DNA of 20,138 nucleotides from a virus (IMGVR_UViG_3300021957_000419:1-20138), one strand, 5' to 3'; positions 1 to 15,290 are shown, counted from the first letter of the stretch. Numbers and translations are program-made. The notes: a model not told the origin generated them from the letters alone.

Positions 1-18
1 ACGTTGTGTGCAATTGTG

Positions 19-183
19 CTAACCAAAGTTTATATCATAATGGTACGAGCAGTAAACATTTCCCTCTAATTTTTGCCTATTACAGTTACTTTTACCGCAC
101 AACTGTACTTCTTCAAGTTCTGTATCTGTTTGCATTGTTTCATTCACTCCTTCAATTGGGTGTTTGTCTAAATCTTGGGTCAC
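19..183 (-). CDS. Small cysteine-containing protein of unknown function
   Basis: Not recognised. The minus-strand frame stays open from a TAG in the upstream gene's end to TAG at 19-21. A GTG at 183 gives 54 residues and an ATG at 135 gives 38. The whole reading has natural composition: an acidic stretch TDTELEEV, then cysteines in the pattern Cx4C and a third C ten residues later next to SYHYD, which could bind a metal. The GTG coincides with the repeat box CACACAAC at 181-188. The gene fills the first cassette-like unit. Start choice and coding status are uncertain. Confidence 0.4.
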   Translation of the reverse strand: MTQDLDKHPIEGVNETMQTDTELEEVQLCGKSNCNRQKLEGNVYCSYHYDINFG

Positions 184-568
184 ACAACAATGTATAACAT
201 TAATAAAGGGTTCTGTACTCTAAATTAACATTATGTTCTTTTGCGTATTTCTCTGCATACTTCATTCCGTTACTCATTCCAAAGTCAATATAAAATACTT
301 GAAGGTCTGCAACTTCTTTCCACGCAAGCCCTGCATTAATTCCCCACATTCGTTCTTCTTCTATTAAGTCATCTAACACACCCTCTTGAGTGTATAATAA
401 ATGGCTTGCTATTGGTGCTTCCCCACGTTTCAGACTATCTTTTAAACATTCTCTAGCGTATTTTATATTTCGTTCCACTTCCCCAGCGTATGGGCTTTCT
501 AGTATTACTCTTTTCATTTAACTTTTGTTTTAATTAATCCTTTACTAATGTTATACTATACCGTTAGC
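181..568. repeat. attC-like hairpin split by the gene at 200-517
   Basis: R''-like box CACACAAC at 181-188 pairs with GTTGTGTG at 3-10. The inner arm GTATAACATTAATAAAGG (192-209) pairs with 539-556 at 17 of 18 positions, followed by CCG|TTAGC at 561-568. The whole 200-517 gene lies in the loop between the two arms, and the left arm overlaps its stop codon. Confidence 0.55.
200..517 (-). CDS. DUF7768-like protein (nucleoside deoxyribosyltransferase-like fold)
   Basis: 105 residues. The N-terminus MKRVILESPYAG, the segment RGEAPIASHLLYTQ near residue 32 and the later segments ER.WGINAGL and VFYIDFGMSNGM match my recollection of DUF7768. This small phage and plasmid family is related to nucleoside 2-deoxyribosyltransferase and YtoQ-type Rossmann folds. 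The reaction is not established, but a role in nucleotide metabolism is a reasonable guess. The length is typical for the family, so the gene looks intact. It sits between the two arms of a long inverted repeat (192-209 and 539-556), and the left arm overlaps its stop codon. No TAnnTTTG promoter is visible just upstream. Confidence 0.75.
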   Translation of the reverse strand: MKRVILESPYAGEVERNIKYARECLKDSLKRGEAPIASHLLYTQEGVLDDLIEEERMWGINAGLAWKEVADLQVFYIDFGMSNGMKYAEKYAKEHNVNLEYRTLY

Positions 569-620
569 TGCAATATGGGCTAACATTCTACATCTAATCA
601 AAGTTAGTGTGTAATTGCCG
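563..620. repeat. Degenerate, empty attC-like unit
   Basis: GTTAGC (563-568) and GCTAAC (579-584) are complementary, separated by only ten bases with no gene. They are followed by a weakly paired segment ending TTGCCG at 615-620. Parsed by analogy with the better units in the window, and weaker than those. Confidence 0.35.
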
Positions 621-623
621 TAT

Positions 624-845
624 TTATTTTTTTCCTCCCCTCTTTCGGTTTTTCAAACCGATTTGTATTAAGTCTCGTACTTCACGGTTAAAGTTTCCTT
701 CGTTGTGCTTGTCTGCACTTTTTTGTACCTCAGCTTTTAAGCTTGGCTTAATACGTATCATTTGCGGCTCTTGTAGCTCTTTTACTGGCTCACTATGCGC
801 TTTTATTATATCTCCCATTAGTGGGTTTATGTTATCTGTTTTCAT
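624..845 (-). CDS. Ribbon-helix-helix-like small protein
   Basis: 73 residues. The middle part (about 28-62: IRIKPSLKAEVQKSADKH then FNREVRDLIQIGLKNR) has the beta-strand plus two-helix pattern of CopG/Arc ribbon-helix-helix DNA-binding proteins, with a basic tail RKRGGKK. Such proteins are dimeric repressors or antitoxins. No partner toxin is recognised. The gene follows 850-1059 by four bases, so the two are probably co-transcribed from the promoter near 1176. Function is inferred from fold pattern only. Confidence 0.6.
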   Translation of the reverse strand: MKTDNINPLMGDIIKAHSEPVKELQEPQMIRIKPSLKAEVQKSADKHNEGNFNREVRDLIQIGLKNRKRGGKK

Positions 846-849
846 AGTT

Positions 850-1029
850 TTATCTTATTACTTTGTATCCATCATTTTTTAAAATCACCTCAGCATTCTT
901 AAAGTAAAATCCTATATGGTGGTCTTGGTTAATACTGCCGTCAGAATTGTAATACTTTATCAATCCAGTTGGCAGTATTTTTGCAATAGGTCTAGTCTCC
1001 AAATCTTTCAAGCCATGCTTCATTTTCAT
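850..1029 (-). CDS. Hypothetical small protein
   Basis: Not recognised. The frame runs back to an ATG at 1059 (69 residues), but the first ten residues overlap the better-supported gene 992-1153. The ATG at 1029 (MKMKHGLKDLET, 59 residues) is therefore preferred, and an ATG at 1023 is also possible. The C-terminal part (GFYFKNAEVILKNDGYKVI) reads like a compact alpha/beta domain. It overlaps the upstream gene by 38 bases, which suggests translational coupling. Confidence 0.5.
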   Translation of the reverse strand: MKMKHGLKDLETRPIAKILPTGLIKYYNSDGSINQDHHIGFYFKNAEVILKNDGYKVIR

Positions 1030-1153
1030 CGTCTTTATTTTTGAACGTAAACAACTCATTAACTACAGTCCATCCACAACTTCTATAAAGTTGAACTTTA
1101 TCTTCTGCCACTTTAATTGTCTCTGTGTCTCTTTTTAATTCTACGTTTTTCAT
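992..1153 (-). CDS. Hypothetical 53-residue protein, first gene of its operon
   Basis: Not recognised. The ORF opens with MKNVELKRDTETIKVAEDK, followed by a VQLYRSCGWTVVNELF core and an acidic segment KDDENE, and ends at TAG 992-994. The case for a gene is position and composition. Its ATG lies 22 bases downstream of a full Bacteroidota promoter (-7 TATATTTG at 1176-1183, TTG at 1203-1205), and the residue mix is natural. The next gene starts inside its 3' end. Confidence 0.55.
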   Translation of the reverse strand: MKNVELKRDTETIKVAEDKVQLYRSCGWTVVNELFTFKNKDDENEAWLERFGD

Positions 1154-1164
1154 ATCTTTATCGT

Positions 1165-1205
1165 TTTTGTATATACAAATATAACTATTTATTTCGTATA
1201 TACAA
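1165..1205 (-). promoter_or_regulatory. Promoter with two GTATATAC palindromes
   Basis: Minus-strand -7 TATATTTG (1176-1183), spacer of 19, then TTG (1203-1205). GTATATAC, a perfect palindrome, occurs at 1169-1176 and 1196-1203 and overlaps each promoter element. The stretch 1167-1180 is the 14-bp palindrome TTTGTATATACAAA. The same block recurs at 2339-2358. This is a good candidate repressor operator. Confidence 0.7.
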
Positions 1206-1291
1206 TAGCAATACTAAAATAAATGTAATTTTTTCAAAATCATTTTGCCATCACACAAAAAAATAAATACTAGTGCAGTGTTTCAAAAGTT

Positions 1292-1386
1292 GTTAGGTGG
1301 GTTCAATCGCCCATACAGTCAGCTAACAACAAATATATGTCAGCTTGCCGCAGGCGCAACACAAGCCGCCACATATTCACACCGTT
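1292..1386. repeat. attC-like hairpin, empty unit
   Basis: GTTAGGTG at 1292-1299 pairs imperfectly with CAGCTAAC ending at 1327. Then come AACAA, an arm containing ATATGT (1335-1340), a GC-rich loop, the arm ACATAT (1371-1376), and CACCG|TT (1380-1386). No gene lies between the two outer boxes. Confidence 0.45.
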
Positions 1387-1399
1387 CTAAGTAATTGTG

Positions 1400-1636
1400 C
1401 TATTTTAAGTCTTTGCCACAGAAGCCACAGTACTCTAAATTATTATTTGCACCAGTTCTAATGTTTGGGAATTTACACTCGCACAACTCCGTAGAACAAC
1501 GTATATCCTCAATAGCTTTTTTCAGCTCATCTACAAAGTCTATTATCTCTTTTTCTTGTTTTTTATTTAGGTCTGTCCTATTCATGTAATAAACCTCCAT
1601 TAAGTCTAATACCTCTAATTTATCTTCTTTTGTCAT
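1400..1636 (-). CDS. Zinc-ribbon-like small protein
   Basis: 78 residues. The first half is helical and charged (KKQEKEIIDFVDELKKAIEDI). The second half has cysteines in RCSTELCEC and a terminal YCGFCGKDL, the typical C-terminal zinc knuckle (CxxC with GKDL). It probably binds one zinc ion. The DNA, RNA or protein partner is unknown. It occupies a unit of array 1 whose right hairpin is degenerate. Confidence 0.55.
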   Translation of the reverse strand: MTKEDKLEVLDLMEVYYMNRTDLNKKQEKEIIDFVDELKKAIEDIRCSTELCECKFPNIRTGANNNLEYCGFCGKDLK

Positions 1637-1696
1637 TTTTGTTGTTTTTAAGTTAATTTCTCCGCTAAAGAGGTTATACGAATCCGTTATGGCGAA

Positions 1697-1885
1697 TTAA
1701 AGCTCAACTATCAATCGAACATATATCCAACCATCTTTATATCTTGCGTGTTTAAATCCCTCTGCTTCTTTTAAGGCTACCGTTTCGTCAAATGGAGTAT
1801 CCCATCTGCTTCTTTGCCCTTTTTCAAATCGTGCCATGTGTTGCCACTTTTTACCATCTTTGCTTGCTTCTATTATGTAGTACAT
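1697..1885 (-). CDS. Hypothetical protein in a well-formed cassette
   Basis: 62 residues, function not recognised. It is rich in aromatics (MYYIIEASKDGKKWQ, then YKDGWIYVRLIVEL), suggesting a small beta-rich domain. Its stop codon lies inside the left repeat arm (1686-1700) and its start is ten bases from the right arm (1895-1909), so the unit is little more than gene plus hairpin. Confidence 0.55.
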   Translation of the reverse strand: MYYIIEASKDGKKWQHMARFEKGQRSRWDTPFDETVALKEAEGFKHARYKDGWIYVRLIVEL

Positions 1886-1894
1886 ATCAATGAA

Positions 1895-1995
1895 TTAACT
1901 CGCCATAACAAAGTGTAAAATTAAAAGTGCAATATGACGTTTTACGCATTTAATCAAGTTTAGTGGTTTGCGATTCAAATCTTACACAAACCGTT
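1895..1995. repeat. attC-like hairpin
   Basis: TTAACTCGCCATAAC (1895-1909) pairs with the unit's left end at 1686-1700, 14 of 15. Then come AAA, arm GTGTAA (1913-1918), a 63-base loop, arm TTACAC (1982-1987), and AAACCG|TT, with the junction at 1993|1994. Confidence 0.6.
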
Positions 1996-1997
1996 AT

Positions 1998-2147
1998 CTA
2001 CAATTTACCCTTACAATAGGCTATCAATGCAGTTTCAAGCAAGTTATTAAAGCTTCTGTTTTCTTTTTTAGCGACTGCCTTAGAATCTTTTAAAATATTT
2101 TTTTCGATTCTTGCGGATATAGGTTGTTTTTGTGTTTTATTTACCAT
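1998..2147 (-). CDS. Ribbon-helix-helix-like protein
   Basis: 49 residues. MVNKTQKQPISARIEKNIL is followed by two predicted helices (DSKAVAKKENRSFNNLLETALIAYCKGKL), the pattern of MetJ/Arc-type DNA-binding proteins. Such proteins often repress their own promoter. The palindromic promoter at 2339-2358 in front of its partner gene is an obvious candidate target (inference). Its ATG overlaps the stop of 2141-2320 (ATGGTAA), so translation is probably coupled. The pair could be a toxin-antitoxin module, but the partner is not a toxin I recognise. Confidence 0.65.
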   Translation of the reverse strand: MVNKTQKQPISARIEKNILKDSKAVAKKENRSFNNLLETALIAYCKGKL

Positions 2148-2320
2148 ATTAATAAATGACTTTTGTTATCAATTACATTCATTTTTTCGTCTTGGTTTTC
2201 TTTATTGTACAAATAATCTCTACTTTCTTTATTTGTCATTTCTTCAGAACCAATAACAGTATATTTATCATTAGTAAATAATTCTTGTCTAATTTCTCTA
2301 ATTGTTAATGTAGTTTTCAT
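2141..2320 (-). CDS. Hypothetical partner of the RHH-like gene
   Basis: 59 residues, not recognised: MKTTLTIREIRQELFTND, then an acidic and charged stretch (SEEMTNKESRDYLYNKENQDEK), ending HLLIW. It is the first gene after a TAnnTTTG promoter (2350-2357) and overlaps the following RHH-like gene by seven bases. The architecture (small acidic protein plus coupled RHH protein in one cassette) resembles toxin-antitoxin or regulatory pairs. That reading is inference. Confidence 0.6.
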   Translation of the reverse strand: MKTTLTIREIRQELFTNDKYTVIGSEEMTNKESRDYLYNKENQDEKMNVIDNKSHLLIW

Positions 2321-2338
2321 AATTTATATATTTACTTG

Positions 2339-2358
2339 TTTTGTATATACAAATATAA
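2339..2358 (-). promoter_or_regulatory. Promoter with TTTGTATATACAAA palindrome
   Basis: -7 TATATTTG on the minus strand (2350-2357), with the 14-bp palindrome TTTGTATATACAAA at 2341-2354 running into it. The 20-base stretch matches 1165-1184. No convincing -33 element is seen. Confidence 0.6.
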
Positions 2359-2416
2359 TACAATTTATTTAATTATAGCCTATTTACACAAAAAATATTT
2401 TAAAAGATTCTGAAAC

Positions 2417-2502
2417 GGGTAAAAAGTAGATAACAGCACATATAATTTATTTGCAATCATCAGAACGTGCTAGGCAAACAAATCATATCTGCATCACGTT
2501 AC
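2417..2502. repeat. attC-like hairpin, right end of array 1
   Basis: The box at 2417-2434 pairs with the unit's left end at 1993-2010 at 16 of 18 positions, including a perfect GTAGATAAC/GTTATCTAC. The inner arms 2437-2455 and 2474-2492 pair at about 16 of 19. The site ends CACG|TT at 2498|2499. It is the best-paired site in the window. Confidence 0.65.
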
Positions 2503-2571
2503 AAAAACACACTCTTAATGACACTTTCTATCCCTTTAAAACTCTCTAAAACAAAACTTTGCCTACTAGAT

Positions 2572-3297
2572 TTAAAGTTTCATTTTAACGTTAAAAGCAG
2601 TATGTCCACCTATGACAACTCCTACTCCGATAGCTTCTTTTTTTCCGCCCTGCATATATCCCATAGCGTAACTTTTACTATCAATACCACAACCTACAGC
2701 CATTCCAAATATTGCTCTTGTTTTTCCGAATAACCATTCTACATAAAAATCTGTATGGTAATGACCCGACACAGTAGACACCATATCTCTTTTAGCTGCC
2801 ATTCTAGGTTTACCGCTTTTATCTCCATGAACATAACGCACACCATCGTAATAAACATCTGTAACAAATCTCCAATTAGGAGTGTTTAAAACTTCACTAA
2901 AACTCTTTATCCATTGTGAAGGTATATTGCTTGTTTGTGCTTTTCTTATGATTATTCTATCATGGTTTCCAAGTGTTACATCAGCATCAGGAAATGCTTT
3001 ATACCACTTTTTTAATTTATCTATTGCTTTTTTCAGTTCGTATTTCCCACCCATTCCATCGCTATCAGTTTCGTGATAAGAACTGTAATGATTATCTATG
3101 ATATCACCTATAAACACTACTTTGTTGCAATTATGTTCAGCGTATATTTTTTTACAAAAATCTAAATATCCATCTAAGCAGAAAGGTTCGTGCAAGTCTC
3201 CTATTACTAGTATTCTACTTTCTTTTTTGGTTATTTTTTTATACGCTTTTAGTACATTGTCTTTTAATCGAGGTCTAAAGTCTTTTTTCTTACTCAT
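2572..3297 (-). CDS. Calcineurin-like metallophosphoesterase
   Basis: 241 residues with the motifs of the binuclear-metal phosphoesterase family in order: GDLH (33-36), GDIIDNH (64-70), GNHDR (110-114), VHGDK (about 155) and GHYH (about 177). These supply the metal-binding Asp, Asn and His residues. Family members cleave phosphomono- or diesters. Phage copies sit in replication and nucleic-acid-processing modules, and the substrate here is unknown. The gene is full length. Its start overlaps the stop of the upstream Cys-rich gene 3290-3439 by eight bases, so they form one operon driven from about 3457. Confidence 0.9.
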   Translation of the reverse strand: MSKKKDFRPRLKDNVLKAYKKITKKESRILVIGDLHEPFCLDGYLDFCKKIYAEHNCNKVVFIGDIIDNHYSSYHETDSDGMGGKYELKKAIDKLKKWYKAFPDADVTLGNHDRIIIRKAQTSNIPSQWIKSFSEVLNTPNWRFVTDVYYDGVRYVHGDKSGKPRMAAKRDMVSTVSGHYHTDFYVEWLFGKTRAIFGMAVGCGIDSKSYAMGYMQGGKKEAIGVGVVIGGHTAFNVKMKL

Positions 3298-3439
3298 AGT
3301 TTTTAATATAAAATGATTGTTTTTTTGTTCTGCAATTAAATTCTTGGTAAAATTGATTTTCGCTAGGCTTAGTTAAAAACCGAAAGCAAGTGTTTTTGAA
3401 GTTGCAATTTGTATTATCGCAAAGCGTGAAGTCTGACAT
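3290..3439 (-). CDS. Small cysteine-rich phage protein
   Basis: 49 residues, with cysteines at 7, 12, 18 and 36. The pattern is Cx4Cx5CFRF, then PSENQFYQEFNC. I recall similar Cx4CPx4CYR...PSxxQ small proteins in other phages, of unknown function, probably metal-binding. The ATG lies 18 bases downstream of a -7-like element (ATAAATTG, 3457-3464). Its stop overlaps the phosphoesterase start (ATGAGTAA). This accounts for what would otherwise be an unexplained ~150-base leader. Confidence 0.7.
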   Translation of the reverse strand: MSDFTLCDNTNCNFKNTCFRFLTKPSENQFYQEFNCRTKKQSFYIKNYE

Positions 3440-3456
3440 AGTTTATTAATTTACTG

Positions 3457-3492
3457 CAATTTATACAAAAATAAGTTTATAATGATTCTAAA
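3457..3492 (-). promoter_or_regulatory. Promoter with 17-bp operator-like palindrome
   Basis: -7-like ATAAATTG (minus strand, 3457-3464) with the palindrome TTTATAATGATTCTAAA (3476-3492; one arm mismatch) centred about 20 bases upstream, where the -33 element should be. Same arrangement as at 5451-5486, 6966-7002 and 10293-10329. Confidence 0.65.
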
Positions 3493-3519
3493 TTGGGCTA
3501 TATTTTTATAGGTTATCGC

Positions 3520-3705
3520 TCAAAACAGATTTTCGAACACTAATTGATTAACATAATCGCTATCTTCATTTAATGTATCTAGTTGTTGTTCTGTCATTTC
3601 TTTGCCTTTATATTCAGCGTATGATATAAAAGCATCGCAAAAATCAGGATAGTCTTTAGTGTCTATTCCGTCAACTTCTACGTTTGTAATGTGTTTGTAT
3701 TCCAT
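3520..3705 (-). CDS. Conserved-looking small acidic phage protein
   Basis: 61 residues. Sequences of the type VEVDGIDTKDYPDFCDAF...G...T..QL..LNED.D.V.Q are familiar from Bacteroidota phages, but no function is known to me. It is acidic and probably soluble. It ends the operon that begins upstream with the HTH, ERF and RusA genes, one base after the RusA gene. Confidence 0.65.
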   Translation of the reverse strand: MEYKHITNVEVDGIDTKDYPDFCDAFISYAEYKGKEMTEQQLDTLNEDSDYVNQLVFENLF

Positions 3706-3706
3706 G

Positions 3707-4027
3707 TTATAGGTTTTTTATTTCAAACTCAATAAATTCTTCTCCTTTTTTAACATCCACTTTCTCAACTATTCCACGATATATCCATTTATCGTCAAAG
3801 TTGTATTTCTTTTGTAGTATATCTTGAAATGGCTTTATAGGGTTATCCCAATCAGAGGCTTTGCTACTGAATCCAAAAGTAAGTTTTAACTCTAGCCTAC
3901 CTTGTGGAACTTTTAAAGGCTCTAAGATACTTAAAAGTAGTTTCTCGTAGTCTTTATATTCTTTTGTTTTGAACCTACGACCACGCCAAACTTTATTTAC
4001 TGAAAGAGGTTTTATTTTTACTTTCAT
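3707..4027 (-). CDS. rusA: RusA-like Holliday junction resolvase
   Basis: 106 residues, close to the usual ~120. The N-terminal SVNKVWRGRRFKTKEYKDYE is followed by SDWDNPIKPFQDIL, giving D59, D61, N62 and K65, and by NFDDKWI, giving D78/D79. These match the acidic and lysine active-site residues of RusA endonucleases. RusA dimers cut four-way DNA junctions, and phage versions resolve replication or recombination intermediates before packaging. The neighbours (ERF annealing protein, DUF1367-like and SSB-like proteins) complete a recombination module. It overlaps the upstream gene by four bases (ATGA). Confidence 0.9.
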   Translation of the reverse strand: MKVKIKPLSVNKVWRGRRFKTKEYKDYEKLLLSILEPLKVPQGRLELKLTFGFSSKASDWDNPIKPFQDILQKKYNFDDKWIYRGIVEKVDVKKGEEFIEFEIKNL

Positions 4028-4251
4028 TTGTCAATTGACTTTAATAACAATTCACCAGTCTTTGGGTCTAGTTTCTTTATCCTACGATAAATGTAAATGC
4101 TTTGCTTTTTCGCTGAACTCTTTTGCTGTTTTGTGAAGTCTTTGCCTAAATCCCTTATCTCGCCATCAAGCATAAGCATTTCGTCTACTTGTTCACGAAT
4201 AGATATATCTTTTGATGTAATAGCTTTTAGTTTGCTTTCTAGTAGTTGCAT
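4024..4251 (-). CDS. Hypothetical helical protein
   Basis: 75 residues, not recognised. Strongly helical and charged (KLKAITSKDISIREQVDEMLMLDGEIRDL, then KQQKSSAKKQSIYIYRRIKKL). It lies between the DUF1367-like and RusA-like genes with a two-base gap and a four-base overlap, so it belongs to the recombination operon. Confidence 0.6.
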   Translation of the reverse strand: MQLLESKLKAITSKDISIREQVDEMLMLDGEIRDLGKDFTKQQKSSAKKQSIYIYRRIKKLDPKTGELLLKSIDK

Positions 4252-4253
4252 AA

Positions 4254-4664
4254 TTAAAATTGTTTTTCGATTTCTTCTCTTACTTGTTCTTTGTCAAAAT
4301 GAAAATACTTCTCAATAGCGTTTAAGGTTGCGTTGTATAACTCACTAAATTCTAACTCAGTCATTTTTGTAAACGATATACTTTTAGCTTCTGTTCTTGT
4401 TTGTCCGTTAAATGTAGTGTGTTGCGTATAGTAACCACTTGCTATTGCTAAATCCTTTCTTAAATGGTCTGAATTAGTGTATTGTTCTTGGTTTCTAAAT
4501 ACTAAATTAATCAAAGCGAAATACTTTCTATGAAACTTTAAATTTCTCGGCTGTGTTACTTTACATTTTACAACTTTCAAAGGTTTGATTTTCTTTATTT
4601 TGTCGTAATCTTCTGCAACCACCTTAAAAGTATTGTCGAATTGTTTAACTAAATAAAGTTCCAT
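4254..4664 (-). CDS. DUF1367-like phage protein
   Basis: 136 residues. The start MELYLVKQFDNTF and the segment VTQPRNLKFHRKYFALINLVF (about 56-76) are characteristic of DUF1367 as I know it, a family found next to replication and recombination genes in lambdoid and other phages. Biochemical function is unknown. The gene is full length and overlaps the upstream gene by 20 bases. Confidence 0.75.
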   Translation of the reverse strand: MELYLVKQFDNTFKVVAEDYDKIKKIKPLKVVKCKVTQPRNLKFHRKYFALINLVFRNQEQYTNSDHLRKDLAIASGYYTQHTTFNGQTRTEAKSISFTKMTELEFSELYNATLNAIEKYFHFDKEQVREEIEKQF

Positions 4665-4902
4665 TTTGTTTGCGTTTTAAATCTTGATGGTCTTTTAGCT
4701 TTTGTTTAGCTTTGTAGTACTCTTTTAAGTACTTCTTATTTGTTTCGTCATTCTCAAATAGTTCTTTGTCGTTTGGTTCGCAACTCCAATCTTTTATAAG
4801 ATGTTTATTGTCTTTATAAATAAGTTCGTGATAGTGTTCTTGCGTCATTGGTTCGGTAACAACAAAAAACACCATTTCTCTACTATCTCTACCTATCCCC
4901 AT
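4645..4902 (-). CDS. Hypothetical charged protein
   Basis: 85 residues, not recognised. A short beta-like N-terminus (REMVFFVVTEPMTQEHY) is followed by a long lysine-rich helix (KKYLKEYYKAKQKLKDHQDLKRKQ). It shares one base with the ERF gene and overlaps DUF1367 by 20 bases, so it is co-translated in the recombination operon. Confidence 0.6.
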   Translation of the reverse strand: MGIGRDSREMVFFVVTEPMTQEHYHELIYKDNKHLIKDWSCEPNDKELFENDETNKKYLKEYYKAKQKLKDHQDLKRKQNGTLFS

Positions 4903-5402
4903 TATACTAATCTTTCAAGTTCTTTGCGCTCATCGTCTGACATTCTAAAAGTGTTTAAAACAACCTTTATTTGCTCTTTAGTACCTTTCTTAGTTGCTTC
5001 AAACTGAACTTTAGTAAGCGATTTTTTTCGGTCTTGTGTTGGTTTTTGTGATGCTGTATTTCCATCGTCATCATCAGCTTTTAAACCCAGTAAACTTTCT
5101 AATGTATATCGTCTAAAATAAGTAATTGCGCTACCTAGTTTTTGAGGGTCGGTAATTAATGGTAAAGTAATGCTGCTTTCAACTAAAGTACCAGTATCAA
5201 TATCTATGATTTGAGATGATACTTTGTTATCTTCAATCGGTTGCAATAAAAGTAAATCATTGTCGTTTAGAACGTCTGTAATAGCTTCTATAAGACCATT
5301 TAAAGATAAGTAGTTGCTTTTAAAGAATGGGTTTTTACTATCCTTAGAAAGTTTACCTATTTCTTTTTTTGCTTTGAATAGTTTTTTGTGTACTTCTTTC
5401 AT
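4902..5402 (-). CDS. erf: ERF-family single-strand annealing protein
   Basis: 166 residues. The ERF core is clear: KNPFFKSNYLSLNGLIEAI (23-41), LLLLQPI (50-56), DTGTLVESSITLPL (69-82) and DPQKLGSAITYFRRYTLESL (85-104), followed by GLKADDDDGN. ERF proteins form rings on single-stranded DNA and anneal complementary strands, acting in phage recombination and genome circularisation. The C-terminal part (115-166) is a charged, variable tail. It is the first gene of a recombination operon (ERF, 85-residue protein, DUF1367, 75-residue protein, RusA, 61-residue protein). A promoter with a palindromic operator lies at 5451-5486 and a hairpin in the leader at 5420-5441. Confidence 0.9.
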   Translation of the reverse strand: MKEVHKKLFKAKKEIGKLSKDSKNPFFKSNYLSLNGLIEAITDVLNDNDLLLLQPIEDNKVSSQIIDIDTGTLVESSITLPLITDPQKLGSAITYFRRYTLESLLGLKADDDDGNTASQKPTQDRKKSLTKVQFEATKKGTKEQIKVVLNTFRMSDDERKELERLV

Positions 5403-5419
5403 TTGTTTTTTAGTTTTAT

Positions 5420-5441
5420 AACCCCTAAATTAATAGGGGTT
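5420..5441. repeat. Perfect hairpin in the ERF operon leader
   Basis: AACCCCTA (5420-5427), loop AATTAA, TAGGGGTT (5434-5441): an 8-bp perfect stem. It begins only about ten bases after the -7-like element at 5451-5458 and ends 18 bases before the ERF start. No T-tract follows on the minus strand, so a 5' mRNA-stabilising or translation-control hairpin fits better than a terminator. Confidence 0.6.
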
Positions 5442-5450
5442 TGTTTATTG

Positions 5451-5486
5451 CAATTTAATACTAAATTCGTTTAGAATCATTCTAAA
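5451..5486 (-). promoter_or_regulatory. ERF operon promoter with perfect 17-bp palindrome
   Basis: -7-like TTAAATTG (5451-5458) and the perfect palindrome TTTAGAATCATTCTAAA (5470-5486) centred 20 bases upstream, overlapping the -33 position. A second 17-bp palindrome, AACTATCTAAGATAGTT (5492-5508), lies next to it and covers the stop codon of the upstream HTH gene. Confidence 0.7.
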
Positions 5487-5497
5487 TAACTAACTAT

Positions 5498-5662
5498 CTA
5501 AGATAGTTGTTCCATTACCTCGTGCTTCTTATATAAGACCCTTCTTCCTATTTTATAGCTTTTTAAATTGCCTTCTTTTGTTCTTCTCCATAAAGTAGGA
5601 AGTGATATGTGTAATATATTGCAAATATCGTTTCTTGTTAAGAATATTATTTCTGAATCCAT
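5498..5662 (-). CDS. Excisionase-like / MerR-type small HTH protein
   Basis: 54 residues. LTRNDICNILHISLPTLWRRTKEGNLKSYKIGRRVLYKKHEVMEQL matches the helix-turn-helix_17 / excisionase pattern: helix-turn-helix, then a wing with the IGRR.LY motif and a final helix. Such proteins bind DNA as excisionases or small regulators. Here it lies between the SSB-like and ERF genes, so a replication or regulatory role is as likely as excision. The 17-bp palindromes at 5470-5486 and 5492-5508 lie at and just past its 3' end and could be its own or another regulator's targets. Confidence 0.75.
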   Translation of the reverse strand: MDSEIIFLTRNDICNILHISLPTLWRRTKEGNLKSYKIGRRVLYKKHEVMEQLS

Positions 5663-5701
5663 GCTTGTTTTGTTTTTTTGTTTATTTCATTTTTTATTAT
5701 T

Positions 5702-6052
5702 TTAAAAAGGTAGTCCCGAGTCATTATCACTAGTAATTGGTGCGCTCGTTGTTTCGAAACTATTTGCTGTTGCTTCTGCTTTCTCAATGCGCCACCCTAC
5801 CAAGCTGTTAAAGTACTTATCTTCTCCTTTGTCATTTGTCCACATTTTACCTCGTAGATTAATAGATACGGTTACTTTGTCTCCTACGTTGTGAGTGTCT
5901 AATAAATCAACTTTGTCTTGATGTAGTTCTAGCATTATATCTTGCGGATATTTGTCATCTTCTGTGGTTACAACTAATTCACGTTTTCTAAATCCGTTAC
6001 TCCCAAAAGTTTGAGTTTCTCCTTTTACTTTGATGTTTCCTGTTACTTGCAT
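5702..6052 (-). CDS. DUF3127-type SSB-like OB-fold protein
   Basis: 116 residues. MQVTGNIKVKGETQTFGSNGFRKRELVVTT followed by YPQDIMLELHQDKVDLLD and GDKVTVSINLRGK fits the DUF3127 family, an OB-fold group common in Bacteroidota. The C-terminus is a low-complexity linker ending DSGLPF. This imitates the DDDIPF-type tip with which bacterial SSB recruits partner proteins. The likely role is single-stranded DNA binding in phage replication beside ERF. The DNA-binding role is inferred from fold and tail. Confidence 0.85.
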   Translation of the reverse strand: MQVTGNIKVKGETQTFGSNGFRKRELVVTTEDDKYPQDIMLELHQDKVDLLDTHNVGDKVTVSINLRGKMWTNDKGEDKYFNSLVGWRIEKAEATANSFETTSAPITSDNDSGLPF

Positions 6053-6056
6053 TTGT

Positions 6057-6290
6057 TTACTTGTTTAAATTAATTCTTAAAAATGATTCTAAATTTTTAC
6101 ATTGTCTAGCTAACTCAAATAAATTCTGTTTAGTTGCTATGTATTCTTCTATTCCTCTACTTACTATATGTTCTGAGTACCCTGTTATCTTAGCTATATT
6201 CTTTAAACTGTTCTCGTTTTCCGTCAAAAGATAATAAGCACTTGTGTACATTCTTTTTTCAAAATCTTCCTTTGTTGGTTTCATAATCAT
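6057..6290 (-). CDS. Hypothetical HTH-like protein
   Basis: 77 residues. The segment LKNIAKITGYSEHIVSRGIEEYI (about 29-51) has a helix-turn-helix shape (AKITGYSEHIVSRGIEEY), so DNA binding is plausible. The family is not recognised. It overlaps the upstream gene by four bases (ATGA) and lies four bases before the SSB-like gene. Confidence 0.6.
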   Translation of the reverse strand: MIMKPTKEDFEKRMYTSAYYLLTENENSLKNIAKITGYSEHIVSRGIEEYIATKQNLFELARQCKNLESFLRINLNK

Positions 6291-6634
6291 TCGTTTAAAA
6301 CTTTATTTATTATACCCTCTACTCTTTTAGGGTTCTTCCTGTACGCAACTATCATGTTTTGAAGTATTGCCATTTCTGAAAAAGGTCTATCTATTATGTG
6401 TTTAATAAATTCTATTTGATTACTAACTATTTGGTCTAAAAATTCACTCTCAACACTATCAACTAAATCAAATTCTTTTTGCTCTGCTTTTATTAGCTCT
6501 TTGTTAAGATTGTTTAATTGGTATTTTAATTTTCCTTTATAGTAGTTAGTGTGTTTTATTTCCTCGTTAAAGTGATTCGCTACAAAGTTAGAAATAATAG
6601 AAGCGAGTATCTTACTTGTATTGCTGTTAACCAT
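6287..6634 (-). CDS. Hypothetical helical protein
   Basis: 115 residues, not recognised. Almost wholly helical by composition, with a charged coiled-coil-like middle (YKGKLKYQLNNLNKELIKAEQKEFDLVDSVESEF). No membrane segment. Overlaps the neighbouring genes at both ends by 4-8 bases, so it belongs to the early operon led by 6627-6944. Confidence 0.6.
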   Translation of the reverse strand: MVNSNTSKILASIISNFVANHFNEEIKHTNYYKGKLKYQLNNLNKELIKAEQKEFDLVDSVESEFLDQIVSNQIEFIKHIIDRPFSEMAILQNMIVAYRKNPKRVEGIINKVLNE

Positions 6635-6944
6635 TATAAATCAATTTAAACCGTCCTAAGTAATCAACCACATCAAAGTAACACTTATCTTCAATCTTTA
6701 AATTAAAGCAGTTTACCATACGTCTATATAAATCTCTTGAACTAATATAGCGTGTTGTTGGACTTGCGCAAACTTTAAAGCTGCTTTCATCGGGGTCGTT
6801 GTCTTTGCGTATGATTACTCTTTTTTCTTTGTAGTTAAAAGTAAGCATTAAGAAGTCGTTTTTGTTAATTCCTATTTTTTCAGCTGCTTGTTTGTTGATG
6901 TAAAACATGCACCCTCCACTCATTGTGATTCTCGGTTTTGTCAT
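6627..6944 (-). CDS. Hypothetical protein, first gene of an early operon
   Basis: 105 residues from ATG 6944. The frame is open to an ATG at 6968, but that codon lies inside the -7 element (6966-6973). A transcript from this promoter cannot include it, so MTKPRITMSGGCMF is the better start. The N-terminal half (MFYINKQAAEKIGINKNDFLMLTFNYKEKRVIIRKD) reads like a small swapped-hairpin (AbrB-like) domain, which is only a guess. The rest has no recognised motif. Confidence 0.6.
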   Translation of the reverse strand: MTKPRITMSGGCMFYINKQAAEKIGINKNDFLMLTFNYKEKRVIIRKDNDPDESSFKVCASPTTRYISSRDLYRRMVNCFNLKIEDKCYFDVVDYLGRFKLIYNG

Positions 6945-6965
6945 AATTTTGTTTTTTAGTTTATA

Positions 6966-7002
6966 CAAATATAGTTTTTATATCGTTTAGAATCATTCTA
7001 AA
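6966..7002 (-). promoter_or_regulatory. Early promoter with perfect 17-bp palindrome
   Basis: -7 TATATTTG (6966-6973), the exact consensus. The perfect palindrome TTTAGAATCATTCTAAA (6986-7002) is centred 21 bases upstream on the -33 position, where no TTG is present. It is identical to the copy at 5470-5486. Confidence 0.75.
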
Positions 7003-7116
7003 TTACTTAATTGATTTAGTAGATTATATAGTACCGTGTAAATTGGTAAATAAGGGCATCTTCTATCATGTTTATTTGTTTTTTGCCGTGGTAAAGGTTT
7101 GCTTATAACTAGTTAG

Positions 7117-7311
7117 CTACAATAAGTTAACTTCTCGTTTCACCATATTCAAGTACATTATTGGTTCTCTAAAACCTTGCTTACTCGCAAAATCTATCAT
7201 TTCATTAATACAAATTAATGCACATTGTTTAGCTTCTTGTTTATAATAGTCTGGACTTAACTCTAACGTAAATTTTTGAATTAATTCCCTTGCTTTTTCT
7301 TTTGGTGTCAT
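7117..7311 (-). CDS. Small protein, paralogue of 9632-9838
   Basis: 64 residues. It aligns with the 68-residue product of 9632-9838 along its length: MTPKEKARELIQKF versus MTPKEKAKELMQKA, a central CALICINEMIDFA versus IALLCVKEILDLG, and C-termini MVKREVNLL versus KVKIELNKL. Likely all helical. I recall similar MTPKEKA small proteins as scattered Bacteroidota phage accessory genes of unknown function. The stop codon lies inside the left cassette box (7112-7120). Confidence 0.65.
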   Translation of the reverse strand: MTPKEKARELIQKFTLELSPDYYKQEAKQCALICINEMIDFASKQGFREPIMYLNMVKREVNLL

Positions 7312-7341
7312 ATTTTAAATTTTAGTTTATTAATACGCTTA

Positions 7342-7405
7342 CAGTAGCTTACAGTAGCTAACAACGTATAAAAAACATTAAAACGATTTTTTATATGCAT
7401 CCGTT
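7342..7405. repeat. attC-like hairpin with duplicated box
   Basis: GTAGCTAAC (7354-7362) pairs perfectly with GTTAGCTAC at 7112-7120. Then come AACAAC, arm GTATAAAAAA (7366-7375), a short loop, arm TTTTTTATAT (7387-7396), and CATCCG|TT (7399-7405). Just upstream, ACAGTAGCT occurs twice in tandem (7341-7349 and 7351-7359), a partial duplication of the box. Confidence 0.65.
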
Positions 7406-7427
7406 ACCAGCAAATAAAAAGGGCGAC

Positions 7428-7625
7428 TTACTCGGGCGGCGCACTGTTGCGCTCAATACTTGCTTTTACTATTCTATACTCGCTTGTTTCGTGTTCCTTT
7501 AGTTTTTTTCTGCTAAAAGTTGTATAAAGGTTATCAATCGGTATTTTAAGAGCGTTAGACAAGCTTTTAACGCTTCCGAATACTCTAACATTATTTGTGT
7601 TTTTATTTATGTGTACGTATGCCAT
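7428..7625 (-). CDS. Hypothetical DNA-binding-like small protein
   Basis: 65 residues. MAYVHINKNTNNVRVFGSV is followed by KSLSNALKIPIDNLYTTFSRKKLKEHETSEYRI. The pattern V.VFGSVKSLSNAL.I..DNLY..FSRKK looks like the small helix-turn-helix/NUMOD-like modules found in Bacteroidota phage accessory genes. DNA binding is an inference. It is the last of three genes in one cassette and abuts the left repeat arm. Confidence 0.5.
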   Translation of the reverse strand: MAYVHINKNTNNVRVFGSVKSLSNALKIPIDNLYTTFSRKKLKEHETSEYRIVKASIERNSAPPE

Positions 7626-7880
7626 TTAACTAAAATTAGGATTTCTTATACTTCCTTTTTGATTTCCAATCACATCACCTTTATCATTATAAATCAAACG
7701 CCATTGTATTGTTCCATCTTTTCTATATTTTGTAGCGTGGTTTATCCTTATAAAAGTGTTTCCATTTGTTCCAATTCTTCTGTCAAACAAATGTTCCTCT
7801 TTTTTATCTAAAAATCGTTTAGTGCATTCATACATTAAACTTCCGTCTTTTCTATATTCTTTTACTTCTTGTACGTTCAT
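7626..7880 (-). CDS. Hypothetical protein with two YRKDG repeats
   Basis: 84 residues. Two related segments (EYRKDGSLMYE near 8-18 and KYRKDGTIQWRLIYNDKGDVIGN near 51-73) resemble MORN-type beta-hairpin repeats. No catalytic motif and no signal peptide are seen. It ends immediately before the start of 7428-7625, so the two are coupled. Confidence 0.5.
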   Translation of the reverse strand: MNVQEVKEYRKDGSLMYECTKRFLDKKEEHLFDRRIGTNGNTFIRINHATKYRKDGTIQWRLIYNDKGDVIGNQKGSIRNPNFS

Positions 7881-7892
7881 CTTATTGGGTTT

Positions 7893-7919
7893 AAAAGACC
7901 TTAACTAATAAGGTCTTTT
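7893..7919. terminator. 11-bp stem hairpin with T-tracts, possibly bidirectional
   Basis: AAAAGACCTTA (7893-7903), loop ACTAA, TAAGGTCTTTT (7909-7919), with seven T on the plus strand and four on the minus strand. It covers the stop codon of 7901-8113 and precedes the ATG of 7880 by 12 bases. On the minus strand it could attenuate read-through into the next two genes. Confidence 0.65.
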
Positions 7920-8113
7920 TTTATTGATTTACATATTCTGCAAGTGTATTCTTTTTCAGCTTTTACTTTTATCTTGTCTTGTGCTTCTTTAATTTTTTCA
8001 GGAGTGTTCTCGTAAACAAATTCTTTTAAGTTTCTTTTTGAGCTACATCCACAAGTTTCGCAATAAACTGTTACTTTGCTTTTTAATTGTCCTATTGGTC
8101 TTTGAGTTGTCAT
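7901..8113 (-). CDS. Zinc-ribbon-like small protein
   Basis: 70 residues from ATG 8113 (MTTQRPIGQLKSKVTVYCETCG). Two CxxC knuckles, CETC (about 18-21) and CRIC (about 61-64), enclose a helical middle, a typical one-zinc ribbon. The frame is open further upstream, but a complete promoter (-7 at 8142-8149) lies inside that extension, so the start at 8113 is chosen. Probably nucleic-acid or protein binding. Partner unknown. Confidence 0.65.
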   Translation of the reverse strand: MTTQRPIGQLKSKVTVYCETCGCSSKRNLKEFVYENTPEKIKEAQDKIKVKAEKEYTCRICKSIKKDLIS

Positions 8114-8141
8114 ATTTTCTAGTTGTTTAATTATTACACTA

Positions 8142-8173
8142 CAAATATAAGTAACATATATGTAACTACCAAA
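8142..8173 (-). promoter_or_regulatory. Consensus Bacteroidota promoter inside a cassette
   Basis: TATATTTG (8142-8149), spacer of 20, TTTG (8170-8173), all on the minus strand. The spacer contains the 10-bp palindrome ACATATATGT (8155-8164), a possible operator. This unit brings its own promoter rather than relying on the array's. Confidence 0.75.
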
Positions 8174-8229
8174 TAAAAATACAAAATAATTTAAAATAAT
8201 TGTAAATATTTGCCTTTCTACGGCAGGCA

Positions 8230-8336
8230 CGCCCTTTTTATCAGCAGGTAACAACGTATATAAAAAAGCGGGGTTGTTGTGCCTTGTCAATAGCAAGTTA
8301 ATCAATCGAGTTGTACACCTCAAATCAAAAACCGTT
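8230..8336. repeat. attC-like site
   Basis: The arm at 8230-8252 matches the reverse complement of 7403-7425 at 20 of 23 positions. It continues AACAACGTATAT and ends AACCG|TT at 8334|8335. Inner-arm pairing is weak here, unlike in its neighbours. Confidence 0.55.
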
Positions 8337-8382
8337 AGCCAATTTCCCCACCATTTCATATACAAGACCTTTATGCTTAATA

Positions 8383-9534
8383 CTAAAATAGCGTTAAACT
8401 TTTAGCTTCTCTCATTTCTTTAATAGGCTTTAATAGTTCTTCATAACCACTTATTCCCTCACCTATGTATTCGTGGCAGTAAGATGCTCTTTCTAGTCTA
8501 TTTCTTGCTTTCTTATCTGTATCTTCTTTTAATTTCCTAACCTTACCATTTTGAGCTGTTGGTCTAAATTTATCACTTTTATTTCTATATTCGCCTAATG
8601 CTGGGTTTACTGTTTTAGTATATACTTTACCACCTATTCCTACAAACATAGAAGCGCAAAACTCACTTATTTTAGTACCTAAACCCATTCCTTGAAAATC
8701 TGGTAAAACAACAGTTCTACTTAAAGCAAAACCATTAGGGCAACCTTTTCTAGGTTGGTTTATTACTGCACATATTCCAATAGGTTTATTGTTCCATTCA
8801 AATAAAAAGAATTTACAGCTTTTATTAACTGCCTCTGTTAAATAATGATGCTTTTTAAAGATGTTCCAAGTATCAGATTCGACTCTACTAACTTGTAATT
8901 CGATTTGTGGCTTTCCTTGCCGAAGCCATTCGCCTCTCTCAAGTGCGCCCCCATTTTTTTGTGGTGAACAAGTCCAATCTGGCATTAGCCATTCCATTAT
9001 ATCAAAATGACAACTTGCTAAAATTATACGTTTATTCGTTCTTCTAATGTATTTTTGTAAAGCAAAACTCATTGCTTTTGCCACATCTCTATCTACTACA
9101 CTTGTGTATTCGTCAACTAAAACAACTTCATTATCTTTTGCTTTACCAACTTTATATGCTAAAGACGCTCTGTATTGTTCGCCATTACTTAATAAATGAA
9201 AAGGTCTTAACCAAGTAGGTACACTGCTCAAACCCATACTTGTTAGTAATAACGTTGCGTCTTTAGGTTCTAACCAATCAAAATTACTTATTAAAGGCTT
9301 TTCGTAATCAAAATTACTTTCAGATAATTTACCCATTCTTTTTAATATAGTTGTTTTTCCGCTTCCGCTACTGCCATAGATAACACCTATATTCCAATCA
9401 AAGTTTTTTGCATCACTTAAATTAAATGACACCTCTACTTCTGTTTCTTCTTTGTTTTGTATATCAAATGCTTCATACACGTAATTAGTGTATTCATCAT
9501 TTTTAATACTACTTTTTAATTTTATTGTTCCCAT
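8383..9534 (-). CDS. ABC-type ATPase fused to Mom-like GNAT domain
   Basis: 383 residues in two domains. Residues ~1-200 form an ABC-class ATPase: Walker A GSSGSGKTT (54-62), signature LLSNGEQYR (114-122), Walker B VVLVDE (137-142), D-loop SVVD and switch His in ASCHFD (176). There are no membrane segments, so it is not a transporter. Residues ~210-340 form a GNAT acyltransferase domain: KKHHYLTEAVNKSCKFFLFEWNNKPIG, then SRTVVLPDFQGMGLGTKIS, the acyl-CoA-binding loop. The HHYL...F...NNKPIG segment recalls the NHYS... segment of phage Mu Mom, a GNAT-fold enzyme that modifies DNA adenine and blocks restriction. DNA modification is therefore a plausible role (inference). The gene fills one cassette-like unit (8334-9617). 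Confidence 0.8.
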   Translation of the reverse strand: MGTIKLKSSIKNDEYTNYVYEAFDIQNKEETEVEVSFNLSDAKNFDWNIGVIYGSSGSGKTTILKRMGKLSESNFDYEKPLISNFDWLEPKDATLLLTSMGLSSVPTWLRPFHLLSNGEQYRASLAYKVGKAKDNEVVLVDEYTSVVDRDVAKAMSFALQKYIRRTNKRIILASCHFDIMEWLMPDWTCSPQKNGGALERGEWLRQGKPQIELQVSRVESDTWNIFKKHHYLTEAVNKSCKFFLFEWNNKPIGICAVINQPRKGCPNGFALSRTVVLPDFQGMGLGTKISEFCASMFVGIGGKVYTKTVNPALGEYRNKSDKFRPTAQNGKVRKLKEDTDKKARNRLERASYCHEYIGEGISGYEELLKPIKEMREAKSLTLF

Positions 9535-9569
9535 TCTTTTTTGTTTTTAGTTTATTAACTCGTACTAAT

Positions 9570-9622
9570 GCTAACAATGTATATAAGCCATAGAAAAAAC
9601 GGCTCATATACTAACCGTTAGC
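9570..9622. repeat. attC-like hairpin, compact
   Basis: GCTAAC (9570-9575), AAT, GTATATAAGCC (9579-9589), an 11-base loop, GGCTCATATAC (9601-9611; 10 of 11 paired), TAACC, GTTAGC (9617-9622). The outer boxes pair with each other as well as with the neighbouring unit ends. Unequal spacers (3 versus 5) leave unpaired bases on one strand, as in attC sites. Confidence 0.65.
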
Positions 9623-9631
9623 AACAATAAG

Positions 9632-9838
9632 CTAAAGTTTGTTTAACTCTATTTTTACTTTACTAAAGTAGTCGTATATTCTAAAACTTGATGGCTCATT
9701 TGCAACATATCCTAAATCTAATATCTCTTTTACACAAAGCAAAGCAATAACCTTACATTGGCTTTGTGGTGTTTTATTAAATTTATCTAAATCATAAGCT
9801 TTTTGCATTAACTCTTTTGCTTTTTCTTTTGGTGTCAT
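9632..9838 (-). CDS. Small protein, paralogue of 7117-7311
   Basis: 68 residues, related along its length to the 7117-7311 product (shared MTPKEKA.EL.QK start, central cysteine-containing helix and lysine-rich end). Function unknown. The flanking DNA is also related: a 20-base stretch ending in GCTAACAACGTATAAAA upstream of both starts is nearly the same. The two cassettes therefore share an ancestor or arose by duplication. Confidence 0.65.
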   Translation of the reverse strand: MTPKEKAKELMQKAYDLDKFNKTPQSQCKVIALLCVKEILDLGYVANEPSSFRIYDYFSKVKIELNKL

Positions 9839-9873
9839 ATTTGAAATTTTATACCTTTTAATCGCTTACAGTA

Positions 9874-10000
9874 GCTAACAACGTATAAAATTCATTGCTA
9901 CATTGTGCTTAATTCAAAGGTTATTAATATTTATTTAATTCTGTTTTTAATCGTTAATTCTATGCTTTCTATACGCAACGAAATCTTATACAATTCCGTT
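9874..10000. repeat. attC-like site with long loop
   Basis: GCTAAC (9874-9879) pairs with GTTAGC at 9617-9622. Then come AACAAC, arm GTATAA (9883-9888), a ~97-base loop, arm TTATAC (9986-9991), and AATTCCG|TT at 9998|9999. Confidence 0.55.
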
Positions 10001-10017
10001 GTATGTAATTAAAAAAG

Positions 10018-10291
10018 ACATACGACACAGAATATAAAAAATAAAATTATTCAAGTTCTTCGTAGTTTAAAGTGTATTCTATTTTTTCAACGTCTGCAAG
10101 TGTTTTCCCAGCCAACCTCACTTCTTTTTGAATATGAAATGAAACCCATTCAAATTCATTTTTTATTGTGTTTTTTTTAATACTTGAAGAACTACCACTA
10201 CTATCAAAAGAACTCCCATCCTTAAAAAACACCTTATATAAATTATTCGTTTTGTAATCCATAATTTTACATTTTCATATCACCATCCGTT
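10018..10291. repeat. attC-like site split by the gene at 10047-10262
   Basis: ACATACGAC (10018-10026) pairs with GTTGTATGT (9998-10006) at 8 of 9. TAAAATTAT (10042-10050) pairs perfectly with ATAATTTTA (10261-10269). These arms touch the stop and start codons of the enclosed gene. The site ends CCATCCG|TT at 10289|10290. Same layout as 181-568. Confidence 0.45.
10047..10262 (-). CDS. Hypothetical small protein inside a hairpin loop
   Basis: 71 residues. A conspicuous DGSSFDSSGSSSSIKKNTIKN segment is followed by EWVSFHIQKEVRLAGKTLADVEKIEYTLNYEEL, which looks like a small alpha/beta domain. Not recognised. Its stop and start codons lie within the two arms of a 9-bp inverted repeat. It is the first gene after the promoter-operator at 10293-10329. 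Confidence 0.55.
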   Translation of the reverse strand: MDYKTNNLYKVFFKDGSSFDSSGSSSSIKKNTIKNEFEWVSFHIQKEVRLAGKTLADVEKIEYTLNYEELE

Positions 10292-14343: not shown

Positions 14344-14481
14344 GATAATAGTTTTTAATTAATAGCGCCTAATAAGAGAATCGAACTCTAAACACCTATT
14401 ATTTCAGTGTCTACCATAAAAGGCTTTTAAGTTTCTGCTTTCAGTAATTCTCAGCAAGGATGCCTAAACCCATATACTTAA

Positions 14482-14541
14482 CAAACAACGTAAAAAACAT
14501 AAAACAGATTTCCAAAACGTTAGTAATTAATCCGTTGTTTG
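14482..14541. repeat. Solo attC-like site
   Basis: CAAACAACG (14482-14490) and CGTTGTTTG (14533-14541) are perfectly complementary and enclose 42 bases. AACAACGTA at the left and AATCCG|TT at the right follow the format of the cassette sites. No adjacent cassette is recognisable. Confidence 0.45.
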
Positions 14542-14990: not shown

Positions 14991-15290
14991 ATGGAAGAGA
15001 AGAAGAAGAAAAACAATCACGGTGGCAGAAGAGAGGGGTCTGGAAGAAAACCCAAGATAGATGAACTTGCTTTTTTAGATAAACTAGATAATATTATTGA
15101 TAGCGATAAGGCTATTGAGAAACTAAAGCAGCTTATTGAAGATGATAATTTCCCTGCATTGAAATTATACATGGAGTATCGTTTCGGTAAGCCTAAAGAA
15201 ACTATTGAGAACATAAACAAGAACTTCAATACTACTTTAACAGAAGAAGAAGCTAAAGTTATAAAGAAAGTGCTTAATTCAGAATATTAA
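14991..15290 (+). CDS. Terminase small subunit-like protein
   Basis: 99 residues. MEEKKKKNNHGGRREGSGRKPK carries the GGRREGSGRK AT-hook-like motif found at the N-terminus of many small terminase-related and DUF5681-type proteins. A helical region (FLDKLDNIIDSDKAIEKLKQLI) and a C-terminal segment ending VIKKVLNSEY follow. It overlaps the large-subunit gene by one base (TAATG), the usual order. Small subunits bind the pac or cos site and stimulate the large subunit. Confidence 0.7.
   Translation: MEEKKKKNNHGGRREGSGRKPKIDELAFLDKLDNIIDSDKAIEKLKQLIEDDNFPALKLYMEYRFGKPKETIENINKNFNTTLTEEEAKVIKKVLNSEY

Follow-up and report, generated by a model that had tools for sequence, protein, structure and literature searches.

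The window analysed here, IMGVR_UViG_3300021957_000419, is a linear fragment of 20,138 bases from the genome of an uncultured phage of Bacteroidota, and it contains ten cassette-like units in two arrays of five units each. Every unit starts at a G|TT junction, pairs its left end with its own box close to the right end and carries a hairpin. These hairpins are sites of a class that is almost confined to Bacteroidota and is set apart by bulge-free arms with two G.T wobbles. We think it quite probable that the units are mobile cassettes, exchanged in an integron-type reaction by a host recombinase that lacks the integron-specific domain, and that they form a pool of the phages' own. We also lean, with noticeably less assurance, towards a broader proposal: that Bacteroidota possess a second integron lineage, in which an Xer/IntI-like recombinase without the integron-defining domain acts on wobble-marked folded sites and in which this host enzyme shuffles a separate, gene-reversed phage pool.

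An earlier note on this DNA had claimed at least eight units built like integron cassettes; ten were found, with junctions that can be read directly from the sequence (Table 1). The complementarity that it described between the left end of a unit and its own right box holds, and all the pairs that it quoted are present. When six variable positions were compared for each of the ten units, 51 of the 60 agreed, and none of 100,000 shuffles reached even 48 (mean 23.3, maximum 47); the weakest match is that of unit 8334-9616. The 23-bp pair that had been placed at 7403/8230 is also there, as is the shared hairpin ending in CCG|TT. A scan for the latter (pattern AACA, arm, arm', [CT]CG|TT; arm scores of at least 7 counted) returned six sites on the + strand, all within the two arrays, where + strand Markov shuffles averaged about 0.5, and zero sites on the - strand. 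A covariance model trained on related sites, hardly any of them from the window, recovered six window sites on the same strand (27-68 bits) and two further ones weakly. A further weak point lies in the very long loops, of about 340, 170 and 250 nt, at the sites of units 1, 3 and 10. Two of the hairpins, at 192-556 and 10027-10288, enclose a whole gene (200-517 and 10047-10262) and a third, at 1494-1685, encloses part of gene 1400-1636; no gene-bearing loops were seen in the bacterial arrays examined, where the scan reached loops of about 200 nt only.

The top-strand consensus of 156 related sites from phages and bacteria is (R'' box ending AAC)-AA(T/C)-GTATAxAxxxxA... loop ...-TATAC-xAACC-G|TT-AxxxxxxAAT, and the sites come in length classes of about 41-45, 52-58, 81-84, 118-123 and 183-187 nt. 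Among 79 units from phages and bacteria, pairing between a unit's own ends scored 4.30 out of 6, compared with 2.27 when shuffled (maximum 2.78 in 2,000). The arms pair in an ungapped register and have no bulges, and they covary with a score of 0.372; shuffling lowers the score to 0.112, and sliding yields at most 0.105. Two arm positions, 7 and 12, carry A opposite C on the top strand, by 57:0 and 86:2 over the reverse arrangement, which gives the bottom strand G.T wobbles there. Overall, G.T pairs number 230 on the bottom strand and 60 on the top, and of 139 sites, 117 fold better as the bottom strand and 13 as the top strand. Canonical attC sites have their strand chosen through extrahelical bases (Escudero 2016, PMC4792948); no such bases were found in the L arm of the present class, which has ungapped arms and two fixed wobbles instead. 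Most boxes read GTTAGCN, GTTATAN, GTTACCN or GTTGTNN and fall outside GTTRRRY / RYYYAAC, so that the odd boxes that the earlier note had listed as deviations are real and belong to a Bacteroidota-specific site class. Of the 60 genome contigs with pattern matches, 59 belong to Bacteroidota. The covariance model matched 27 of 296 Bacteroidota genomes versus 1 of 299 Pseudomonadota genomes, that one being the seed contig; since the whole-genome search scores 16 candidates per genome, these counts are lower bounds. The sole non-Bacteroidota genome match, L120, is a 5-kb contig of a Sphingopyxis metagenome-assembled genome and is probably misbinned.

Related phages differ exactly at the junctions. 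Several relatives found with the terminase (L026, L027, L035, L073 and others, 85-96% identical) have common left and right flanks; between these flanks the four named phages hold 650, 637, 283 and 920 nt of differing content, and in L026 and L073 the right flank has the junction G as its first base. Another pair, L054 and L078, shows 100% identity for 2,264 nt, as far as TATACTCACC|GTTATA, and is unrelated beyond. Of 70 cases, 9 had the alignment end no more than 12 nt from a junction, compared with 0.43% expected, an enrichment of about 30-fold in cases that are not all independent. Two isolated phages of Cellulophaga, phi12:1 and phi17:1, share about 95% identity through a site and diverge from GGATG|TT. 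A homologue of window cassette 5 occurs at another genome position in phage L365, where homology starts exactly at G1993 and no site lies upstream of that point. Furthermore, the site of unit 8 (9561-9620) is 100% identical over 60 nt in phage contig L055, among different genes. Units of related phages are gained or lost exactly at the junction, as is expected of attC cassettes, and the comparison for presence or absence at CCG|TT that the earlier note had suggested was positive in uncultured phages, in isolated phages and for window cassette 5. L025, a candidate empty site, was rejected because it carries a slightly larger deletion.

In bacteria, a tyrosine recombinase gene immediately precedes the arrays of this site class, on the same strand. 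When recombinases were chosen on protein score alone, 13 of 20 had sites downstream on the same strand, several others reached the contig end, and none of the 20 had sites upstream. Filtered sites numbered 16 in 353 kb around array-linked recombinases, whereas 377 kb of XerC/D surroundings from the same genomes gave none. The first cassette typically begins 36-155 nt past the recombinase stop codon (11 of 20), often behind a palindrome and TATAC/TATAA, in the interval where an integron would have its attI site. The array-linked recombinase aligns to the IntI model on either side of a gap (6-179 and 242-315), with 42 alignment columns of the IntI-specific domain absent, and scores 193-228 bits against a cut-off of 265 bits. 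In an unrooted tree, whose long branches call for caution, these recombinases form a group of their own (92/88) beside IntI (100/99) and Bacteroidota XerC/D (100/100), and the closest structures to their predicted fold are XerA and VchIntIA. The supposition that Bacteroidota are without true IntI was wrong, as 84 of 296 genomes have one. The site-class model found 0 matches in 359 kb near 20 true IntI loci of Bacteroidota, but several of these loci carry classical-looking sites in divergent orientation; two integron systems therefore appear to coexist in Bacteroidota. No IntI above the family cut-off was found in 29 genomes selected by the site pattern. A shorter relative of the array-linked recombinase (about 280-320 amino acids) was also noted, though not seen next to model matches, in Bacteroidota genomes that have true IntI as well (G055, G067, G083, G084, G094, G095, G121, G129, G156, G172, G188 and G322).

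The tyrosine recombinase that the earlier note had proposed to look for on this genome did not appear: the 20-kb record contains no PF00589 match. With at least two attC-like sites and no nearby integrase, the window is an attC cluster without integrase (CALIN). Nor was a full recombinase of the array-linked group found in 32 array-bearing viral records, which are fragments. A virus-classed contig with six sites (L085) has a short fragment related to this recombinase at 8735-9031 (35 bits), possibly a decayed gene. A phage-borne recombinase was rejected on these grounds, which point to supply by the host in trans. The integron-cassette logic of the earlier note stands, but its filing of the sites as attC of a canonical integron does not, because no fitting recombinase is present on the known part of the phage and the bacterial enzyme lacks the IntI-specific domain. 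In Cellulophaga phage phi13:2 (L459), a run of small genes at 11.5-15.7 kb with cassette-type end pairs (12629/12439, 14152/13976 and 14559/14399) adjoins a tyrosine recombinase gene, gp038; this recombinase is unrelated (22 bits).

Gene orientation distinguishes the phage units from the bacterial ones. Among units with verified ends, genes are reversed relative to the site in 56 phage units and forward in 0, whereas in bacteria 74 are forward and 10 reversed (Fisher 4e-29); the reversed genes that the earlier note counted as a deviation are thus the rule in phages. Phage units have a median length of 390 nt and bacterial units one of 827 nt. Because their genes are reversed and their units shorter, the phage cassettes do not represent a sample drawn from the host's; most simply read, they constitute a separate pool, favoured since phage operons run opposite to the orientation of the sites; that the direction of replication fixes their orientation would be a guess. 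At least one bacterial exception (L113) lies on a contig that also has an endolysin gene and two weak phage protein family matches, and the bacterial exceptions may therefore be prophages.

These observations provide the setting for a model of cassette exchange. We propose that a cassette would leave or enter as a circle at G|TT. The single-stranded bottom strand would fold into a hairpin formed by the paired end boxes (R' and R'') together with the paired arms, and a tyrosine recombinase would cut beside the G. The strand for cutting is probably marked by the conserved G.T wobbles and unequal spacers, not by bulged bases. The recombinase, of which there is none on the known part of the phage, would most likely come from the host, and the phage genes, always opposed to the sites, would be read with the phage operon. 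We infer that the domain-less recombinase performs the reaction, that it works in trans on phages and that it uses the bottom strand. Independent support for the reactivity of such sites comes from attC2 of Polaribacter phage P12002L, although attC2 is not matched to a particular class site: it underwent IntI1-dependent recombination via the bottom strand and none via the top (Qi et al. 2023, PMC9892861).

Several points weigh against this model. Recombination is deduced, with none observed for the window or by the array-linked recombinase, and the sampled units are partly non-independent. A borderline covariance match (23 bits, E 0.004) turned up in L202, one of the 20 XerC/D control regions. 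No recombinase of this family was obtained from 10 of the 27 model-positive Bacteroidota genomes, and both the recombinase and the site searches have limited sensitivity. Since the record covers a linear 20-kb piece of the phage genome, a recombinase of the phage's own may lie elsewhere on it. Finally, homologous recombination between similar hairpins could also place breakpoints at the end of a site. This last point is the core of an alternative that we regard as unlikely, namely plain phage mosaicism by Erf/RecT-type annealing between short conserved hairpins, with no site-specific recombinase. The phage does encode an Erf-like annealing protein, SSB and RusA, and breakpoints ending a shared 45-60-nt hairpin would also seem junction-exact, but mosaicism does not account for the pairing of each left end with its own right box, for cassette homology beginning at the G although the genome in question (L365) has no upstream site, or for bacterial sites that trail one recombinase family and not XerC/D, the borderline match aside, or true IntI.

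The prevalence of true IntI in Bacteroidota would suit the idea that these are canonical integron cassettes, moved by a host IntI and passively carried by the phage, as would the finding that P12002L, which bears class sites, has an attC recombined by IntI1 via the bottom strand only (Qi et al. 2023). We nevertheless hold this to be improbable: class sites are absent near the 20 Bacteroidota IntI genes, where classical-looking divergent sites stand instead, none of the 29 site-pattern genomes has an IntI over the cut-off, and the reversed phage genes are not simply host cassettes. The hairpins might instead function in RNA, in termination, processing or the control of translation, the variable genes lying between them by coincidence. 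Phage mRNA carries the G.U-paired, bottom-strand sequence and some sites lie directly upstream of gene starts; however, bacterial genes run the opposite way, so that bacterial mRNA carries the poorly folding strand, yet bacteria have the same G.T bias. As own-end pairing and junction-exact breakpoints would also go unexplained, an RNA-level origin seems very improbable. Equally little can be said for an Xer/dif-type module system, like pdif modules, using host XerC/D, which we judge to be hardly credible. The array-linked recombinase is Xer-like in fold and sequence, but it groups apart from XerC/D, whose surroundings gave no filtered site and only the one borderline match, and the sites are folded hairpins rather than double-stranded dif sites.

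The units resemble integron cassettes and attC sites in their tandem arrangement, G|TT recombination point, mutually pairing end boxes and bottom-strand-functional hairpin, and in site lengths of about 43, 56, 83 and 121 nt. They differ in boxes outside GTTRRRY, in bulge-free arms with two conserved G.T wobbles, in reversed phage genes, in whole genes within some loops and in not being found near IntI. True IntI (VchIntIA, PDB 2a3v; TIGR02249) is, with XerA, among the best structure and sequence matches of the array-linked recombinase; in contrast to IntI, which is divergent from its array, the latter is co-oriented with its array, has no IntI-specific domain and forms a separate group in the tree. 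The XerA or integron-like subgroup of tyrosine recombinases (NF040815; Smyshlyaev et al. 2021, PMC8138268) is likewise simple in structure, but in the accessible part of that study its insertion-less members are not tied to cassette arrays. CALINs on virulent phages, including P12002L, are known (Qi et al. 2023, PMC9892861), and phage-borne attC arrays as such, integrase-free and on lytic phages, are thus not new. In P12002L we found at least four strong sites of the present class (33-41 bits), with leftward genes as in the window. Divergent attC directions were reported for this phage, and the accessible text of Qi et al. 2023 does not separate the class or describe a fixed reverse orientation or a link to a Bacteroidota recombinase.

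No published description of a domain-less recombinase with its array, of wobble-marked sites or of a reversed phage pool was found in a search that most subscription papers and preprints lay outside, and there is a fair chance that we are dealing with a separate integron lineage. Integron surveys choose integrases by the IntI-specific domain and so would miss integrons without that domain by definition. If our reading is true, folded single-strand sites can be recombined without the IntI domain, which bears on the origin of integrons from Xer-type enzymes; gain of an I2-like domain by an Xer-like ancestor has been proposed (Escudero 2016, PMC4792948). It would also supply a concrete engine for the fast turnover of small accessory genes in Bacteroidota phages, one that the cultured Cellulophaga and Polaribacter phage systems make testable.

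Table 1. Cassette units and other features of the window. Each unit starts at the first base of its G|TT junction (+ strand); array 1 (units 1-5) ends at 2498 and array 2 (units 6-10) at 10289. Box match is given in variable positions out of six; all unit genes are on the - strand.
Feature	Positions	Strand	Left end / right box	Right box position	Box match	Hairpin (model score)	Genes or remarks
Unit 1	3..562	+	GTTGTGTG / CACACAAC	181-188		arms 192-212 / 536-556	19-183; 200-517
Unit 2	563..1383	+	GTTAGCTG / CAGCTAAC	1320-1327		1328-1383 (27.9 bits)	624-845; 850-1059; 992-1153
Unit 3	1384..1685	+	GTTCTA / TAGAAC	1492-1497	4/6	arms CGTATATCCTC / GAGGTTATACG	1400-1636
Unit 4	1686..1992	+	GTTATGGCG / CGCCATAAC	1901-1909	6/6	to 1992 (41 bits)	1697-1885
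Unit 5	1993..2497	+	GTTATCTACAATTTACCC / GGGTAAAAAGTAGATAAC	2417-2434	6/6	to 2497 (12.9 bits)	2141-2320
Core phage genes	2572..6968	-					metallophosphoesterase, RusA-like resolvase, Erf-like annealing protein, helix-turn-helix protein, SSB
Unit 6	7112..7402	+	GTTAGCTAC / GTAGCTAAC	7354-7362	6/6	to 7402 (44.4 bits)	7117-7311
Unit 7	7403..8333	+	23-nt end pair, left end 7403-7425 (87%)	8230-8252	5/6	to 8333 (29.1 bits)	7428-7625; 7626-7880; 7901-8113
Unit 8	8334..9616	+	GTTAGCC / TGCTAAC	9569-9575	3/6	to 9616 (67.9 bits)	8383-9534 (ABC-type ATPase plus GNAT)
Unit 9	9617..9997	+	GTTAGCAAC / GTAGCTAAC	9871-9879	5/6	to 9997 (26.7 bits)	9632-9838
Unit 10	9998..10288	+	GTTGTATGT / ACATACGAC	10018-10026	6/6	long loop	10047-10262, inside the loop
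Large terminase subunit	15290..16675	+					query for related phages

The units vary in how gene, box and hairpin are placed. In unit 1, the first gene sits between the left end and the right box, and the second, whose product is DUF7768, lies in the loop of arms that form a 90% inverted repeat; the gene of unit 3 overlaps the right box. Inside unit 5, a perfect 22-nt inverted repeat (2082-2103 / 2390-2411) flanks the gene on both sides, and its relative in L365 keeps the pairing of these arms through a change from AAAATATTTT to AAAATCTTTT with a compensating change opposite. No site lies upstream of unit 6, which is preceded by TTGCTTATAACTA.

As the earlier note had stated, the arrays flank core phage genes, with terminase, SSB, Erf and RusA on the same genome; the early operon runs leftward and the structural operon rightward. 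The gene of unit 8 belongs to phrog_11143, which matched more than 200 phage contigs; that it is always a cassette was ruled out, as 80 homologous loci are mostly without cassette sites. An Rfam scan of the whole window gave no match, and the terminase search found no close relative among isolated phages. A very close relative was also sought via gene 10527-11363, which returned a single distant contig only. Between the two operons, which diverge here, lies an inverted repeat with attC-like letters (CAAACAACG ... CCGTTGTTTG, 14478-14540); it may be a degenerate site, or may act in regulation or as an origin.

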